From Planctomycetia bacterium (GTDB taxonomy: Bacteria > Planctomycetota > Phycisphaerae > Phycisphaerales > SM1A02): a stretch of DNA of 33,199 nucleotides. Shown here one piece after another: positions 12,917-18,852 of this stretch (position 1 is the first letter of the stretch; every line of letters starts with the position of its first letter). The notes under the pieces were generated by a model. It was not told the DNA's origin. It was given only the letters and a program-made list of their open reading frames with translations, and did not search any database. Where the stretch lies: contig SXUJ01000117.1 of assembly GCA_005790565.1 (NCBI GenBank), positions 1-33,199 of the forward strand. The letters run 5' to 3'. The translations under genes and the position numbers were made by a program.

Positions 12917-13549
12917 ATGAAGTTCAGCCGTACCACCCAATTGACTCTCAACGCCGCTGCTGCCGCAAGCGCAAGTTTGCTCATCGTCACCACCACACTT
13001 GCCGCTGGACTCGGCGCGATCGCAGCAATCCCCGGTACTCCGTTCGGCGTGACCGGAACCGCTCAAGCAACTGCGGTCGCGCAAGTTGTCGGCAGTCGAG
13101 TCGAAGTGATTTACTCCGCCGCGCCCGCGTTCATCGGATACTTCCCAGCTGCCGCGGGAACGATGACCACGCTCAACGGTCCTGGATTCCGGCTTTCCTG
13201 TGACCACGCTGGCGCGCGACCCATCTTCACGCTCGCACACACAGGCGCCGTTGGATTCGACATTGTCGAGATCCGACTGATCGGCAGGAACAATCTTGGC
13301 GGAAAGAAGTACTGTTTCGATCGCACCCTTCCCAACCCTGGAACCGCAGGCGGATTGGCGGGCGCCGACATCGCGTACCTAGGCGGTGCGGGCGGGTGGC
13401 TCGCGGGACCGGAGTACAGCGATCGCGTGAATGTCGTGGGGACCCTGGCGCAGAATGACACCTACATGAGACTCCGCGTGAAGTTCTCGACGCCGTTCGT
13501 CTCCAACAACTACCTCAGCTTCGGCCTTGACATTGACCGAATCTTCTAA
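12917..13549 (+). CDS. Small secreted protein of unknown function
   Basis: A 210-residue protein that I do not recognise. It begins with a basic MKFSRTTQ, then a long Ala/Leu/Thr-rich hydrophobic segment to about residue 35, consistent with a signal peptide or N-terminal anchor. The remainder has alternating hydrophobic residues, many Gly, Val, Thr and Asn, and only two Cys (in RLSCDHAG and KKYCFDR), which could form a disulfide. This suggests a compact beta-sandwich. GAGGA at 12905-12909 is a good Shine-Dalgarno for the ATG. It is monocistronic: the gene upstream is divergent, the one downstream is convergent, and two hairpins follow. Confidence 0.8.
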   Translation: MKFSRTTQLTLNAAAAASASLLIVTTTLAAGLGAIAAIPGTPFGVTGTAQATAVAQVVGSRVEVIYSAAPAFIGYFPAAAGTMTTLNGPGFRLSCDHAGARPIFTLAHTGAVGFDIVEIRLIGRNNLGGKKYCFDRTLPNPGTAGGLAGADIAYLGGAGGWLAGPEYSDRVNVVGTLAQNDTYMRLRVKFSTPFVSNNYLSFGLDIDRIF

Positions 13550-13570
13550 GGGCAAGAATGAAAGAACTTG

Positions 13571-13614
13571 GCACTTCAGACGAACCTCGACTCCGTCAGG
13601 TTCGTCTGAAGTGC
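13571..13614 (+). terminator. Perfect 17-bp hairpin after the secreted-protein gene
   Basis: GCACTTCAGACGAACCT at 13571-13587 is exactly complementary to 13598-13614 with a 10-base loop. It starts 21 bases after the stop codon. No T-run follows, so it may protect the 3' end or act with the second hairpin downstream rather than terminate alone. Confidence 0.6.
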
Positions 13615-13654
13615 AGGCGTTCCTATCCAACGCCAAGAGCACGCTCCTCACCTG

Positions 13655-13692
13655 CAGCCCATTCGTCTCTGTTCGCGAATGGGCTGTTTTTT
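13655..13692 (+). terminator. Rho-independent terminator
   Basis: An 11-bp stem, CAGCCCATTCG at 13655-13665 pairing with 13676-13686, has a 10-base loop and is followed by six T (13687-13692) and CTT. The T-run lies on the plus-strand side only, so it serves the 12917-13549 gene, not the protease gene that ends at 13711 on the other strand. Confidence 0.9.
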
Positions 13693-13710
13693 CTTCGACA
13701 AGAGATAGAG

Positions 13711-15249
13711 TTAGCACGGTCCCCACGCGCTCAGGACGATCGCGAGATCCGACGCGCCCACAATTCCATCCCCATCAAGATCGGCAATACTCGACGCGCT
13801 TCCCCAATAGGCAAGGATGAGCGAAATGTCTTGCGCGCTCACCACGCCATCCTGGTTGACGTCCGCTTCGCACGCGGACTCGGCAATGCCGAGGTAGAGG
13901 ATTTCCGTGTCGCTCCCTGCCGCATTCGTTGCGCGAACAAAGAGCATGTACTGGAATTGGCTCGGGATCGGATTCGGCCAAGAAATGACACCGGTCTGTG
14001 GATGAATTGAAACACCCGCCGGCGGAGACGCGACCAGCGACCAAGTCGTGGGGCTCATGTTGATCGGCCGAGTCAAGTGGGGAACTGGACTCGACCACGC
14101 GGCCCCCGCCGTTCCGAAGAACTGGCCAAGCGGCGAAACAATCTCTGGCGCAAACTGCAGAACATGCGCGGGCACACAGTACGCAGCGTCGTTGTTGTCT
14201 TCGAATTGCTCTGGGAAAATGTGCTGCGGGTCAACCACCGAAAGGACATGCCAGTCGCGTGACGCGATGTCGTTCGGAAGATCTGTGACAAGGTCAAAGT
14301 CGATCAACTCACCCCCTGGGAGATCCCACACGAGATCCGCGAGGAGCAAGTCTGAGGGATCAATCACTTCATCCGCAGAGAACCAAATGCGCTGCGTCAC
14401 GCCGAGCGCGTCCATCGAGCCGCGATTCTCAATCGCGCTTCGCACGGTAAGTTCCGCTCCCGGCAGCAGTGCACTTGGCGACGAGTGCACGGTGAATGCG
14501 CTCCCCACATGTTCGCCACTCCATGAAAAGTTAAGCGTCGCAAGGTCAATGACAGCGGGTGAGGTTCCGGGGTAAAGCAGCCGCGCACCAACGCGGTCGT
14601 CTGCATGGGTCTCGAAAACTCGCTCGACACCATTGGAACCACCATGCGCGTAGCCAGGATTCATCGAGCAGACGATCCATGGCGCGCCGGGAGTCTCCGA
14701 GCCCGTCGGTTCATGCGCGAGACCAATCGAGTGACCACACTCATGCATTGCCACAAGCTTGAAGCAGAACCCCTCAAGCCCGGGCACTGCCTCCTCAATA
14801 CAAGTTGGCTGCGCGACAAAGTTCCAACCAACTACGAGTGGTTCGTTGTTGAACTCCATGTCCATGTCGTACCACTCCGCGCCATCATTGACCGCGTATG
14901 TCACCGCGAGAACACCCGGATCAAGAACATCCGAGCCCACGGCGGTCGTGTCGCTATACCCATCAAAGTGATCGGTCGGAAAATCCTGCGGAAGGACCGC
15001 GTACAAGAAGCGAAACGCGCATCCGTCAATAGACGACCAATCTCCCATGGCACCGACAAGTTGTTGGGTCTGCACCGCGCCTGTGGGAAATGAACTCGGC
15101 ATGAGGTACCGAACGCATTGCTTCTGCGGCCACACGACGACTTGTCCGGCGTAGGTCCACGCGTTCCAACCTCCGGCAACCGCGAACAGGACGATCAAGA
15201 CGAAAAACGCAAGCACACGAATTCGGATCGAGGATGGGCTTGCAGTCAT
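13711..15249 (-). CDS. Secreted metzincin metalloprotease with a dockerin-like C-terminus
   Basis: A 512-residue protein. A hydrophobic signal or anchor lies at about residues 10-27. The catalytic domain carries HECGHSIGLAH, an exact HExxHxxGxxH zinc motif (H169, E170, H173, H179), and a Met-turn in CSMNPG (M196), as in matrixin-type (M10-like) metzincins. Residues of about 240-360 resemble a CARDB-like beta domain, and 365-456 an Ig-like domain (PQTGVISWPNP). The end (460-512) has two calcium-loop-like repeats, DVNQDGVVSAQD and DLDGDGIVGASD, i.e. a dockerin-like module bracketed by Cys460 and a final Cys512 (AWGPC). The start at 15249 is set by an ATGA overlap with the upstream gene and has GGGAG about 8 bases before it. 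The substrate is unknown. Confidence 0.9.
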   Translation of the reverse strand: MTASPSSIRIRVLAFFVLIVLFAVAGGWNAWTYAGQVVVWPQKQCVRYLMPSSFPTGAVQTQQLVGAMGDWSSIDGCAFRFLYAVLPQDFPTDHFDGYSDTTAVGSDVLDPGVLAVTYAVNDGAEWYDMDMEFNNEPLVVGWNFVAQPTCIEEAVPGLEGFCFKLVAMHECGHSIGLAHEPTGSETPGAPWIVCSMNPGYAHGGSNGVERVFETHADDRVGARLLYPGTSPAVIDLATLNFSWSGEHVGSAFTVHSSPSALLPGAELTVRSAIENRGSMDALGVTQRIWFSADEVIDPSDLLLADLVWDLPGGELIDFDLVTDLPNDIASRDWHVLSVVDPQHIFPEQFEDNNDAAYCVPAHVLQFAPEIVSPLGQFFGTAGAAWSSPVPHLTRPINMSPTTWSLVASPPAGVSIHPQTGVISWPNPIPSQFQYMLFVRATNAAGSDTEILYLGIAESACEADVNQDGVVSAQDISLILAYWGSASSIADLDGDGIVGASDLAIVLSAWGPC

Positions 15250-16073
15250 CGCGATGCTCCCTTCGGCGATGCGGGAAGCAACTTCCACTTTGGGCGAGTC
15301 GCACCGGTGCGCGCAACTTTCGCTGGCGCGTTCAGAGGCCGACCGCTCGATGTCTGAAATGGCACGGCGCGCGAATCGATCCAAATGCGAGGCGCGACGA
15401 CCAATCCCTCTGGCAGTGGTCGTGGAGTACTCGCGCCAAGAATCGGCTGGAGCGCAGCGTTCCACGCTTCGCTGGTCATCGCAGGATCCACCGCTCGCGT
15501 GGAGAGGTCTGCGCGATGCGGTTGCGCGCACGCGGCACTCGAGCACGTGTGTGTCCGTTGCGACCTTGCGTAGCGAACACTTGAATCGGGGTTCAATCCA
15601 GTCACCAATCCACCCGCACCCCGCACGACCGCTCCGTCCTTCCCTTGCTCAAGTCGAAAGGCTCCTTGCCATATTCCCGCACAGGGATGGGTCTTCCAAG
15701 ATGGGAGTAGACACAACATCCAGCGCTCACCGGCAACGAATGAGGGCGCGCCTGCGAGTTGCATGGTCATGCCGTTCATCGTCCCGCCTGGCACGATCCA
15801 CTCGAACGCGGAAGGACCAGAGCCCTTCAAGTACGCAACCTCGCAAAGCTGCACAACCGTCTCGATCTCGTGTCGATCGCTCGCCCAACGCGATGATGTG
15901 GATGCAACCGTCGCCCAGCACACTTGCGCCGAGAGGTCGGCGATCTCACGCATCGACATCGGTTTTACACTCGTCGCCTCGACCCGCACGGAGAAGCAGA
16001 GCACAAGCGCCGCGATGGCGATGAGCGCGCACGCGCGGCTGCCGACTCCGAAGCTTGCGCGTCTCACTCCCAT
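15246..16073 (-). CDS. Exported protein of unknown function coupled to the metzincin
   Basis: A 275-residue protein with a signal peptide ending near SVRVEA. The mature N-terminal half (MSMREIADLSAQVCWATV...EVAYLKGSGPSAFEWIVPGG...FVAGERWMLCLL) has the look of a beta-barrel-like exported domain that, in my recollection, is often encoded beside matrixin-type proteases; that is a recollection, not a search result. The C-terminal part is Pro/Ser-rich and low in complexity. Several Cys suggest disulfides. The stop overlaps the protease start (ATGA, 15246-15249), so the two are translated together. It could be an inhibitor, a chaperone or a partner of the protease. The start at 16073 is chosen for its signal peptide and the TATGTT box 6 bases upstream. 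Confidence 0.75.
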   Translation of the reverse strand: MGVRRASFGVGSRACALIAIAALVLCFSVRVEATSVKPMSMREIADLSAQVCWATVASTSSRWASDRHEIETVVQLCEVAYLKGSGPSAFEWIVPGGTMNGMTMQLAGAPSFVAGERWMLCLLPSWKTHPCAGIWQGAFRLEQGKDGAVVRGAGGLVTGLNPDSSVRYARSQRTHTCSSAACAQPHRADLSTRAVDPAMTSEAWNAALQPILGASTPRPLPEGLVVAPRIWIDSRAVPFQTSSGRPLNAPAKVARTGATRPKWKLLPASPKGASR

Positions 16074-16079
16074 ACATGC

Positions 16080-16085
16080 AACATA
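16080..16085 (-). promoter_or_regulatory. -10-like box TATGTT close to the protease-partner start
   Basis: On the minus strand TATGTT ends 6 bases before the ATG at 16073, and no Shine-Dalgarno is present. The spacing would put the first transcribed base at or next to the ATG. Confidence 0.4.
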
Positions 16086-16156
16086 ACCGCGACTGAGCGC
16101 GAGGCAAACGAGAGCCTCATGCAAACTCTCTTTGATGCCCGCACAGACCGCGCGAC

Positions 16157-16903
16157 CTACCGCTTCGCACTCACCGAGGCGCCGAAGATCTCACGGAAGA
16201 ACGAGCCGGAGCCCTCATACGCTCGTGCTGCCGCAATCGCGCGATACTTCACCCCAAAGCTCGGATCGTTCGCGGCGGGGTTCGTGAACGCATGCAGCGT
16301 TCCTCCAAATGCGTGCAGTTGCCAGTCGGCCTTGGCGCCTGACATTTCCGCTGCGAAACCGAGCGCTGCGTCGGGTGGGCACATTGGGTCATCCCAACCG
16401 TGATAGGCAACGACTTTGCACGCAATCGGCGGCTGTGCGCCGAGGTTGGGCGCTGCAAACAACGCGTGGTAGGCAATGACACCCAGCAGTCCGGGCGCGT
16501 TGGCCCGGGCGAGATCAAGTGCACACAATCCACCAAAGCAGAATCCAATCGCGGCGATGCGCGTGGAGTCTGCGCCAGCGATGCGAGATCCATGCGTCAC
16601 GCTCGCGAGGAGTCGGCGGCGCAGCAGCGCACGATCTTCCATGAATGGAGTCATAAGCTTGGAACATGAGGCGTGATCTCCGCCCCGTCGTCCTTTACCG
16701 TAGACATCGATCGCGAATCCGATGTACCCAAGGCTCGCGATCCATTCCGCTCGTTCACGATCGAACGCTTCGGAGCCGCCCCATGCATGGCAGATGAGGA
16801 CGATGGGTCTTGGAAGATCGGAGCAAGGGGCCGCAACAAATCCCTCCAGCTCAGTGTCGCCGTCAAAGTACTGCACCACTTCTCGTCGTTCGTTCGTTGA
16901 CAT
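16157..16903 (-). CDS. Dienelactone hydrolase-family alpha/beta hydrolase
   Basis: A 248-residue protein of typical dienelactone-hydrolase length. The nucleophile elbow GFCFGG gives Cys122. The acid is Asp171 or Asp172 in HGWDDPM and the base is His204 in GTLHAFTNP, completing the Cys-Asp-His triad of the family. The oxyanion region ICHAWGGSE (about 37-45) is also present, and there is no signal peptide, so it is cytoplasmic. The true substrate cannot be read from the sequence; dienelactone itself is unlikely without aromatic-degradation genes nearby. A TACACT box lies 7 bases before the ATG and there is no Shine-Dalgarno. Confidence 0.9.
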   Translation of the reverse strand: MSTNERREVVQYFDGDTELEGFVAAPCSDLPRPIVLICHAWGGSEAFDRERAEWIASLGYIGFAIDVYGKGRRGGDHASCSKLMTPFMEDRALLRRRLLASVTHGSRIAGADSTRIAAIGFCFGGLCALDLARANAPGLLGVIAYHALFAAPNLGAQPPIACKVVAYHGWDDPMCPPDAALGFAAEMSGAKADWQLHAFGGTLHAFTNPAANDPSFGVKYRAIAAARAYEGSGSFFREIFGASVSAKR

Positions 16904-16916: not shown

Positions 16917-17178
16917 ACGAGCGAGGTCCCGTTGCGACGACGCGCGCGGCGACGCGCCGCGGGATGGAGATTTCGATGGTTGAAAATTCCAAGAAGAAAA
17001 ATGGAGGTGAATTGCGGAGCGTGCTTCGAGTCGGAGTAGAACTCTCAGGTCGTCCTGTGCGCTGATCGGATGCGCAGAGAGCGAGACTAGGGGAAAGAAT
17101 TGGTTGGGCGTAGGACGTGCGCGTGATCGCTGGGCGACTCACGAACGCGCGGAGGTTGTTTCGCAGCAGTCCGCGAAC

Positions 17179-17183
17179 GGAGG
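17179..17183 (+). promoter_or_regulatory. Shine-Dalgarno GGAGG that fixes the FG-GAP protein start
   Basis: GGAGG lies 7 bases before ATG 17191. An in-frame TTG at 17104 has no such site, so the shorter form is preferred. Confidence 0.8.
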
Positions 17184-17190
17184 TTTTCTC

Positions 17191-18852
17191 ATGGCTGGAA
17201 AGATGGGTCAGTCGCAGTTGGTCGCAACGCGTGAGCTCGAAGCTCGCTCGAGGGAGCAAGGCGAAAGGCGTGCGTCATTCGAGCATGCGCGAGGTGGGCC
17301 GCACGAACGGAGCGCCGCGCCGTGGCGTAAGGATGTGGGAGTGCATGGCACGCGCGAACCAGGTTCGAGTCGCGCTCGACGATCGGCGTGGATCGTGGCT
17401 GGCTGCACGCTCTCCTGTTTGGCGCTCGTCCTCCACAACACGAGCGCGGCGGAATCGAGCCTCGCGCTCGCACACGAGCAACCTTCCACCGTCAATCGAG
17501 CGGAACCACAACGCGAGTTCGTGCTCTCTCCGAAAAAGGGGGCGTATGAGCCTCGGTTTGGGGCCACGCTCGCCGCGTCCGCTCGATGGCTCGCGGTCGG
17601 TGCGCCCATGGATCACGATGATGGCAATACGCCGGGATCAGTCCACCTCTACGCCGTCAACCGCACACCGCAGTTGGGCATCGATGCTCACGAGGTCGCT
17701 CGCGCAGATTCCCCCATCGCGGGTGATCGATTCGGCATTGCGGTTGCGATCCGGTTCGGAGAGACACCGGAACCCGAGATACTTGTGGGATGCGATGAGT
17801 CGGATGAAATCTTGCCCGATGCGGGATGCGTCCGCGTGCTTCATCTCGACGAGGGGCGACTCGAATCTGGCGCCATCCTGTTTTCTCCCCGACCGGAGCC
17901 TGGGGAGGCCTTTGGCCACGCGATCGCGGTCAGCGCCGGATGCATCGTCATCGGCGCTCCTCGCGGGGACTCCGTCGAAGTGCACTCCGACCCTGACGGG
18001 TCGATCCGATCGACACCCATCTATGACGCTGGGCATGCGTACATCTTTTCGAGAAACTCGCAGAGTGGTGCGTGGCACGCGACTGCCACGCTCGAACGCG
18101 AAACTCCCGAATCGAGTGCGTGGTTCGGCCGCGCTTTGGCGGCGAGCGGTGATTGGATTGCGGTTGGTGCGCCTGGCGTCGACGCGCTTGAAGATGGAGC
18201 GAGTTCCCAGACTGCGATGAGCGTTGGCGAGGTGAGCGTCTACCATCGCGACGCGAGCGGAGACTGGAACGCACACGCCACGCTTCGGCCACCCCGAGTC
18301 GCGGCGTTCGCCGCCTTCGGCAGTTCGATTGCTCTTGAGGGTGACACGCTCATCGTCGGCGCACCCGGGTACACGACGCCTGCTGTTGACGGAGAGAGCA
18401 ACCACACGACTGGCGCGGTATTCGTGTTCACGCTCACGGATGCTTCTCTGCAGTCCCCAGCAGTACTCACTGCACCCGACGGTGCTGCGAGCGCGTCGTT
18501 TGGCGTGTCGGTCGCGCTCGCGCGCGGTCAACTCCTCATCGGCGCTCCAGGGGCGAATGACGCTGGGCAGTCAAGCGGCGCGGCGTGGAGATTCGGTCGC
18601 GATGATTCAGAATCGCCGTTCTTTCCAACCGCGCGACTTCGAGCGGCGAGCGCGGGCGAGATGTTCCTCTTCGGGAGCGCGACGGCACTTCTCGATCGCT
18701 GCGCAGTGGTTGGGCGTTTCCACGACGAAGAGAGCGGCCATCCCCAGGGGTCGACGCACCTCTTCCCAAGTGACGCACCGCTCATCGCGCATCGAAGTGA
18801 ACCCGATGCATCCACTTCAGGCTGGAAAGCGGCGAGCGATGCCGCGCCGTGA
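17191..18852 (+). CDS. Membrane-anchored FG-GAP beta-propeller protein
   Basis: A 553-residue protein. About 65 charged, Arg-rich residues precede a single hydrophobic segment at about 66-84 (WIVAGCTLSCLALVL), so it is probably anchored with the rest outside the cytoplasm, or carries a very long signal peptide. The rest holds seven repeats of the FG-GAP type, for example FGATLAASARWLAVGAP, FGHAIAVSAGCIVIGAP, FGRALAASGDWIAVGAP, FGSSIALEGDTLIVGAP and FGVSVALARGQLLIGAP, plus two less regular ones. Seven repeats would close an integrin-alpha-like propeller. Loops such as DHDDGNT could bind calcium. There is no dockerin end and no catalytic motif, so a binding or adhesion role is likely. It stands alone between divergent and convergent neighbours. 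Confidence 0.85.
   Translation: MAGKMGQSQLVATRELEARSREQGERRASFEHARGGPHERSAAPWRKDVGVHGTREPGSSRARRSAWIVAGCTLSCLALVLHNTSAAESSLALAHEQPSTVNRAEPQREFVLSPKKGAYEPRFGATLAASARWLAVGAPMDHDDGNTPGSVHLYAVNRTPQLGIDAHEVARADSPIAGDRFGIAVAIRFGETPEPEILVGCDESDEILPDAGCVRVLHLDEGRLESGAILFSPRPEPGEAFGHAIAVSAGCIVIGAPRGDSVEVHSDPDGSIRSTPIYDAGHAYIFSRNSQSGAWHATATLERETPESSAWFGRALAASGDWIAVGAPGVDALEDGASSQTAMSVGEVSVYHRDASGDWNAHATLRPPRVAAFAAFGSSIALEGDTLIVGAPGYTTPAVDGESNHTTGAVFVFTLTDASLQSPAVLTAPDGAASASFGVSVALARGQLLIGAPGANDAGQSSGAAWRFGRDDSESPFFPTARLRAASAGEMFLFGSATALLDRCAVVGRFHDEESGHPQGSTHLFPSDAPLIAHRSEPDASTSGWKAASDAAP

Follow-up and report, generated by a model that had tools for sequence, protein, structure and literature searches.

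The window analysed here, a 33,199-nucleotide stretch of a Planctomycetia bacterium (contig SXUJ01000117.1; the genome comprises 2.66 Mb in 177 contigs), carries two overlapping genes on its minus strand. The first encodes a 275-residue exported protein, hereafter the partner (15246..16073, minus strand), which has no Pfam or NCBIfam match and contains a predicted TIMP/NTR-like domain. The second encodes a 512-residue metalloprotease of the matrixin type (13711..15249, minus strand). Both open reading frames are real, and, as the initial annotation had claimed, the partner stop and the protease start share four bases, ATGA (15246..15249, minus strand). The same −4 overlap is found in 74 of 122 related pairs. 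Both proteins are predicted to be exported, as had also been claimed: signal-peptide-like N-termini can be read on partner and protease alike. By contrast, the promoter box that had been ascribed to the partner was not recovered: a consensus scan of positions 13500-16300, which covers the sigma-70 type only, returned 0 sites (0.4 in shuffled sequences). Beyond the protease gene, a perfect inverted repeat of 16 bp around a 10-base loop (13572-13613) and then a terminator-like hairpin (13654-13687) sit between two convergent genes and may end both transcripts. On the plus strand, a gene at 17104-18852 encodes a protein with FG-GAP repeats.

The zinc motif of the protease, HECGHSIGLAH, spans residues 169–179 (14713..14745, minus strand). 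Residues H169, E170, H173, G176 and H179 are invariant in 122 aligned proteases, a set that was selected on this motif, and besides HExxHxxGxxH the alignments reveal a later conserved Met and a DD...Y block. The window protease itself scores 20.2 bits against Matrixin (PF00413), or 22.1 bits when its first 249 residues are used, where the Pfam cut-off is 24; at E ≤ 0.01, however, PF00413 is matched by 121 of the 122 aligned proteases, the window's included. A PDB sequence search with the catalytic part of a related protease (L011) gave no match. Three modules follow, all encoded on the minus strand: a CARDB-like domain (residues 253–354, 14188..14493; 19.7 bits, cut-off 22.7), a He_PIG putative Ig domain (residues 371–449, 13903..14139; 20.1 bits, cut-off 24) and a C-terminal dockerin-like domain (residues 462–505, 13735..13866), which exceeds the cut-off for Dockerin_1 (27.4 bits) and scores 27.5 bits against dockerin_GC (cut-off 29). 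The propeptide of MMPs is ~80 residues long. The median distance from start codon to HExxH is 167.5 residues in the 122 split proteases, into which a signal peptide and catalytic domain fit but the usual MMP propeptide does not. These enzymes resemble the matrixins (PF00413, karilysin) in the zinc motif, the later Met and the DD...Y block, and in the MMP fold modelled for a natural fusion (L005, below), but differ in that the gene has no room for a long propeptide and is accompanied by a partner gene or fused domain instead.

The partner is far less easily placed. Searches of partner sequences against Pfam and NCBIfam identified no credible family, only single chance-level matches for a few members, and PDB sequence searches returned nothing credible and no TIMP. 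For the family analysis we used an alignment of 114 sequences (A2), composed of the window partner and 113 of the 121 other partners with a called start. DUF4131 was matched by 9 of these 114 at E ≤ 10 and by 2 at E ≤ 0.01. The best-conserved residues are T72, G84, G96, G97, G115, G133 and G137, and the N-terminus is not among them. No conserved cysteine is present in the partner alignments, which rules out a cysteine switch in the partner.

The predicted signal peptide of the window partner comprises residues 1–33 (15975..16073, minus strand), with cleavage between VEA and TSVKP, as judged from the sequence and from an AxA register over 122 partners; the predicted mature protein therefore starts with a threonine, T34. 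Signal sites were assigned by a simple rule together with this register rather than by a trained predictor, and the rule-based calls alone scatter, with 28 of 114 at the commonest distance. At the register positions around the predicted cleavage, Ala occupies −3 in 41% and −1 in 60% of 121 partners. In all 122 partners the first two predicted mature residues are never Asp, Glu, Lys or Arg, and the second is Thr or Ser in 59%. The window partner has no lipobox, a lipobox-like motif occurs in 4 of the 122 partners, and a C-terminal membrane-like stretch occurs in 1 of the 122 partners of split pairs.

To what extent the pair recurs was assessed in two samples. Among close relatives, 8 of 61 genomes (the window's own genome counted) gave a match, one of which (L006) proved to be a spurious chance match and was dropped. 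Two congeners of the window's species and a member of a different genus (L011, L012 and L004) share both the partner-to-protease order and the four-base overlap. A search profile (A1), built from nine partner domains, every one adjoining or fused to a zincin, so that zincin-linked members may be favoured, matched 128 of 392 genomes in a sample of the phylum. Up to eight candidates were scored per genome, and every match listed was examined. The 120 stretches around the listed matches, together with the earlier loci, yielded 165 classified domain frames, or 152 once repeats were removed. A script sorted these into 122 with the full motif downstream, 6 fused, 16 with no motif, 5 near the end of the locus and 3 with the motif elsewhere, and the remaining 24 (16 + 5 + 3) were sorted by reading. 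Three of the 16 were followed by a matrixin whose motif is altered (L161, L162 and L164, of which L161 matches Matrixin), one locus had a matrixin just upstream of the domain (L101), two had one ~2.8 kb downstream (L122, L146), and two of the 16 without motif (L063, L092) and three of the 5 near a locus end (L007, L047, L139) were fusions to zincins. After reading, the 152 loci thus comprised 125 with the matrixin downstream, 11 fusions, 3 with it nearby, 11 lacking one and 2 truncated at a contig end. Six further listed loci, counted without the duplicate filter used on the other 152, added five in which the motif follows in the same orientation (L200, L201, L202, L203 and L205; L201, counted here as downstream, contains undetermined bases and could be a fusion) and one fusion (L204).

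Altogether, of 158 domain loci among the matches listed, 130 are directly followed by a matrixin-like gene in the same orientation; the rest comprise 12 fused to a zincin, 3 with a matrixin nearby in another order, 11 with none and 2 at a contig edge. The initial annotation had placed similar domains beside matrixin-like genes elsewhere and proposed a conserved protease-partner system. This proposal is supported: in 142 of the 156 loci uncut by a contig end, the domain lies directly upstream of, or is fused to, a zincin, mostly of matrixin type. Nor do the homologs lie mostly away from metalloproteases, as 3 more have a matrixin nearby and only 11 of the 156 have none in the fetched stretch. 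The chance background amounts to 8 unpartnered motifs in 830,685 bases (101 loci), or ~0.01 motif per 2 kb of one strand, and two of these 8 are fusions and three are nearby cases already counted. Given this background and the 74 exact overlaps among 122 pairs, the pairing exceeds chance. The converse does not hold: of 150 Matrixin matches listed for a 149-genome sample, 59 lie within 1.5 kb downstream of a listed partner domain; this is a lower bound, obtained by comparing the 150 listed Matrixin places with 72 listed partner places, and some partners may be missed. A tblastn search of plasmids with three partners gave no match.

The 11 of 158 loci without a zincin in the fetched stretch indicate that the domain has other uses. 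Five stand-alone domain genes without a protease (L057, L106, L120, L127 and L163) have similar C-termini with RGKPGG or RGRPGG, and in two of them (L057 and L163) the downstream frame resembles, by eye, a folate-synthesis gene. At two loci (L122 and L146) the partner domain carries a C-terminal membrane-like stretch and is followed by a long exported protein that looks glycosidase-like by eye; a matrixin motif lies ~2.8 kb downstream of the domain.

The split pairs are tightly arranged. Beyond the exact four-base overlaps, any overlap is found in 91 of 122 pairs and the protease starts within 30 bases of the partner end in 110 of 122, although the protease start codon taken was the one nearest the partner stop, a choice biased towards small gaps. 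Over the 122 pairs, distances between partners correlate with those between proteases (Pearson 0.79, Spearman 0.46), a correlation that stems in part from shared species history. The nearest neighbour of a partner is matched among the three nearest of its protease in 86 of 122 cases, compared to a maximum of 9 in 200 permutations that ignore species relatedness. Much of this shared history is removed when pairs are compared inside genomes that carry more than one; here the protease of the same pair follows the best outside match of its partner in 46 of 60 comparisons, which are not independent of one another, as is also the case for loci of one genus.

To gain insight into the partner domain, we modelled it with AlphaFold from the 114 partners. 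Mean pLDDT per block is 91–97 for residues 41–120 and 84–92 up to residue 150; residues 151–200, which lie within the TIMP-aligned stretch, have values of 54–72. The model is predicted to form an OB barrel with flanking helices in the NTR topology. In a Foldseek search of the PDB the first five matches are agrin NtA and TIMP-2 (E 0.005–0.01, probability 0.94–0.99), followed by TIMP-1 and the netrin domain of PCOLCE, and none of the matches reaches an E of 0.001. In the VIA comparison the top match is N-TIMP-3 (3cki_B; Z 8.9, 2.8 Å, 115 residues aligned with a chain of 121), with the aligned part of the partner spanning residues 34–218 (15420..15974, minus strand). TIMP, NTR or complement C345C domains make up 44 of the 50 VIA matches listed, where complement stretches that do not bear that name are taken by us to be NTR domains. 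As Z scores of 7–8 are usual for unmatched models, the best partner value lies little above them. The fold score of the model is thus modest on its own, and the argument lies in the agreement of the match list.

The register of these alignments bears on function. In 13 of the 18 TIMP matches from VIA, partner residue 34 is placed on the first residue of the chain (numbered 1, 301 or 1001), and in the other 5 residue 36 is placed on residue 3; both pairings represent one register, and residue 34 directly follows the predicted signal peptide. In this register, the counterpart of the partner's predicted mature N-terminus is Cys1, with which TIMPs chelate zinc. According to PMC3679795, the metal is coordinated by both the amino and the carbonyl group of Cys1, and the Ser or Thr that follows as residue 2 reaches into the S1′ pocket. 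Profile comparison by hhalign of the 114 partners with three TIMPs recovers the same offset of 33 at P 0.012 and a probability of 3.6%, compared to P 0.54 for a control with the protease alignment; the nine-sequence partner alignment gives P 0.57 and a probability of 0.1%. Neither TIMP (PF00965) nor an NTR family is among the best 25 of 31 Pfam families for the 114 partners at E ≤ 10. The case for partner–TIMP homology from sequence is weak, and, given these profile scores (3.6% and 0.1%), the data carry a likeness of fold and register.

These modest values (Foldseek E 0.005, Z 8.9) would fit a mere operon of two envelope proteins with unrelated actions, the OB/NTR barrel being common and the TIMP likeness devoid of functional meaning, as would the 11 of 158 listed domain loci that stand alone. 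But the 74 exact overlaps in 122 pairs, the 12 fused loci and the co-inheritance of the pairs are not expected of unrelated neighbours, and we regard this explanation as very improbable. The predicted fold bears, instead, on the three roles that the initial annotation had entertained for the partner, namely inhibitor, folding helper or targeting subunit, and among these a TIMP/netrin fold, if the model is correct, favours an inhibitor.

Natural fusions place the two components in one chain. In other genomes of the family, single proteins consist of a signal peptide, partner domain, linker and HExxHxxGxxH (L005, L008, L009 and L010), and a further one-chain form (L007) has a variant zinc motif; all five contain Matrixin matches. 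The partner domain of these fusions thus lies between the signal peptide and the catalytic domain. The catalytic part of L005 was modelled with an MMP fold, for which karilysin is the first match (Z 17.5, 151 aligned, 2.8 Å), tied within 1 with human MMP-11 (Z 17.0), and PDB 8b2q, potempin A with karilysin, is named among the matches. The orientation of the partner relative to the catalytic domain is not confident in the fusion model (pTM 0.55). Behind the catalytic domain, three fused proteases (L005, L008 and L009) carry FG-GAP repeats, which may be compared with the FG-GAP gene in the window. The window's own genome contains a second, fused copy of the domain (L047, 547-1836, contig 118) with the zincin motif HEMGHSLG; this zincin had no Pfam match in the stretch scanned. 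By eye, one or two hydrophobic segments interspersed with basic residues connect the domain to the protease in L064, L134 and L139, and these proteins look like a merger of two genes with signal or anchor segments.

The position of the fused domain is that of a prodomain, and so the partner could be a prodomain in trans, a foldase without which the matrixin would not attain its active fold, inhibition being a side effect or absent; the domain would then have split off from the protease N-terminus or have been fused to it later. Such a role would fit the order of translation, partner first, and the lack of space for a long propeptide in the gene of the split protease. On the other hand, for 91 of the 150 listed matrixins no upstream partner was found (some may be missed), these enzymes presumably fold alone, and the closest folds to the partner are inhibitors and binding modules, making a foldase rather unlikely. 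The partner could also accompany the protease outside the cell as a subunit for targeting, anchoring or substrate binding. Agrin NtA and the NTR domains of procollagen enhancer and complement are among the nearest folds, and animal NTR-fold domains often bind matrix or other proteins. The membrane-like hydrophobic joins seen by eye in the three fusions above and the CARDB-like, Ig-like and dockerin modules of the window protease also fit. Those modules, however, may already provide anchoring, and split partners are rarely anchored themselves (1 of 122 with a C-terminal membrane-like stretch, 4 of 122 with a lipobox-like motif). A targeting role is improbable on this evidence.

Several known systems offer comparisons for the partner. 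Among the animal, disulphide-rich NTR domains, those of agrin NtA, PCOLCE and complement C345C have mostly binding roles; the fold predicted for the partner is the same. The TIMP family is distinguished by an N-terminal Cys-X-Cys and six disulphides. With N-TIMP the partner shares, in the model, the fold, the extent (115 residues aligned with the 121 of N-TIMP-3) and an N-terminal coil followed by a helix, and with TIMPs it shares the register of the predicted mature N-terminus and the association with matrixins. Unlike TIMPs, it lacks conserved cysteines and convincing sequence homology, is bacterial and is encoded with its protease. PotA, the potempin of karilysin, is a five-stranded OB barrel. 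It is absent from the displayed Foldseek and VIA matches of the partner, which excludes nothing.

The closest precedent in gene order is found in Tannerella forsythia, where, according to PMC7296668, the genes of KLIKK proteases, including the matrixin karilysin, lie immediately behind those of the potempins, small lipoproteins that each specifically inhibit the protease encoded next to them. As in these pairs, the gene of a small exported protein lies directly upstream of the protease gene, and the catalytic domain of a natural fusion is nearest to karilysin (Z 17.5). The partners differ in that a lipobox-like motif occurs in only 4 of 122, where the potempins are described, in the same source, as lipoproteins. 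They also belong to another phylum, and the modelled partner has an additional helix at its C-terminus and resembles TIMP/NTR folds.

The potempin precedent, predicted fold, N-terminal register and gene order together make an inhibitor the best reading, and we think it probable that the partner inhibits the matrixin of the downstream gene in the manner of a TIMP or a potempin and is made before it. In the mechanism that we propose, cleavage by signal peptidase would expose a mature N-terminus precisely where the domain begins, and the N-terminal strand of the partner would enter the active-site cleft, where its free amine would cover the catalytic zinc as does that of TIMP Cys1. Because the partner would be translated first, the protease would be silent while crossing the envelope; its gene has no room for an 80-residue propeptide, and the partner would silence it instead. 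Outside the cell, we infer, the protease would be released from, or outlive, its inhibitor. In the single-chain relatives the same domain may act in cis like a zymogen prodomain. A bolder version, to which we give distinctly less credence and which we offer tentatively, is a bacterial MMP–TIMP system. Here, a widespread operon would pair a matrixin with a homologue of TIMP that lacks the TIMP disulphides and chelates the catalytic zinc with its freed N-terminal amine, and in natural fusions the inhibitor would be a cis prodomain.

The initial annotation had supposed the system to be undescribed, and we found nothing to the contrary: the partner belongs to no Pfam or NCBIfam family, and literature searches on planctomycete matrixins, on bacterial TIMP-like or NTR domains and on inhibitor genes upstream gave no account of it among the matches listed. 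No literature was found on MXAN_2677 or on bacterial matrixin propeptides with karilysin, and, by a term look-up, neither PMC10755359 nor PMC3679795 mentions bacteria in its main text. Inhibitor–protease operons are a known kind. On these searches, what is new is a phylum-wide family with a TIMP-like fold, lacking the TIMP cysteines and paired with matrixins.

Such a role would provide a large, unnamed family of the Planctomycetota with a testable function and would explain how these bacteria export enzymes resembling matrix metalloproteases without harm to the envelope. Should inhibition be confirmed, more than 100 natural pairs would each encode a simple TIMP-like inhibitor, free of the TIMP cysteines, together with its target, a ready set for studies of inhibitor specificity. 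The pair bears, moreover, on the origin of the animal MMP–TIMP pairing: if the bacterial MMP–TIMP reading is true, the animal pair has a bacterial counterpart, via descent or via convergence on the same fold.
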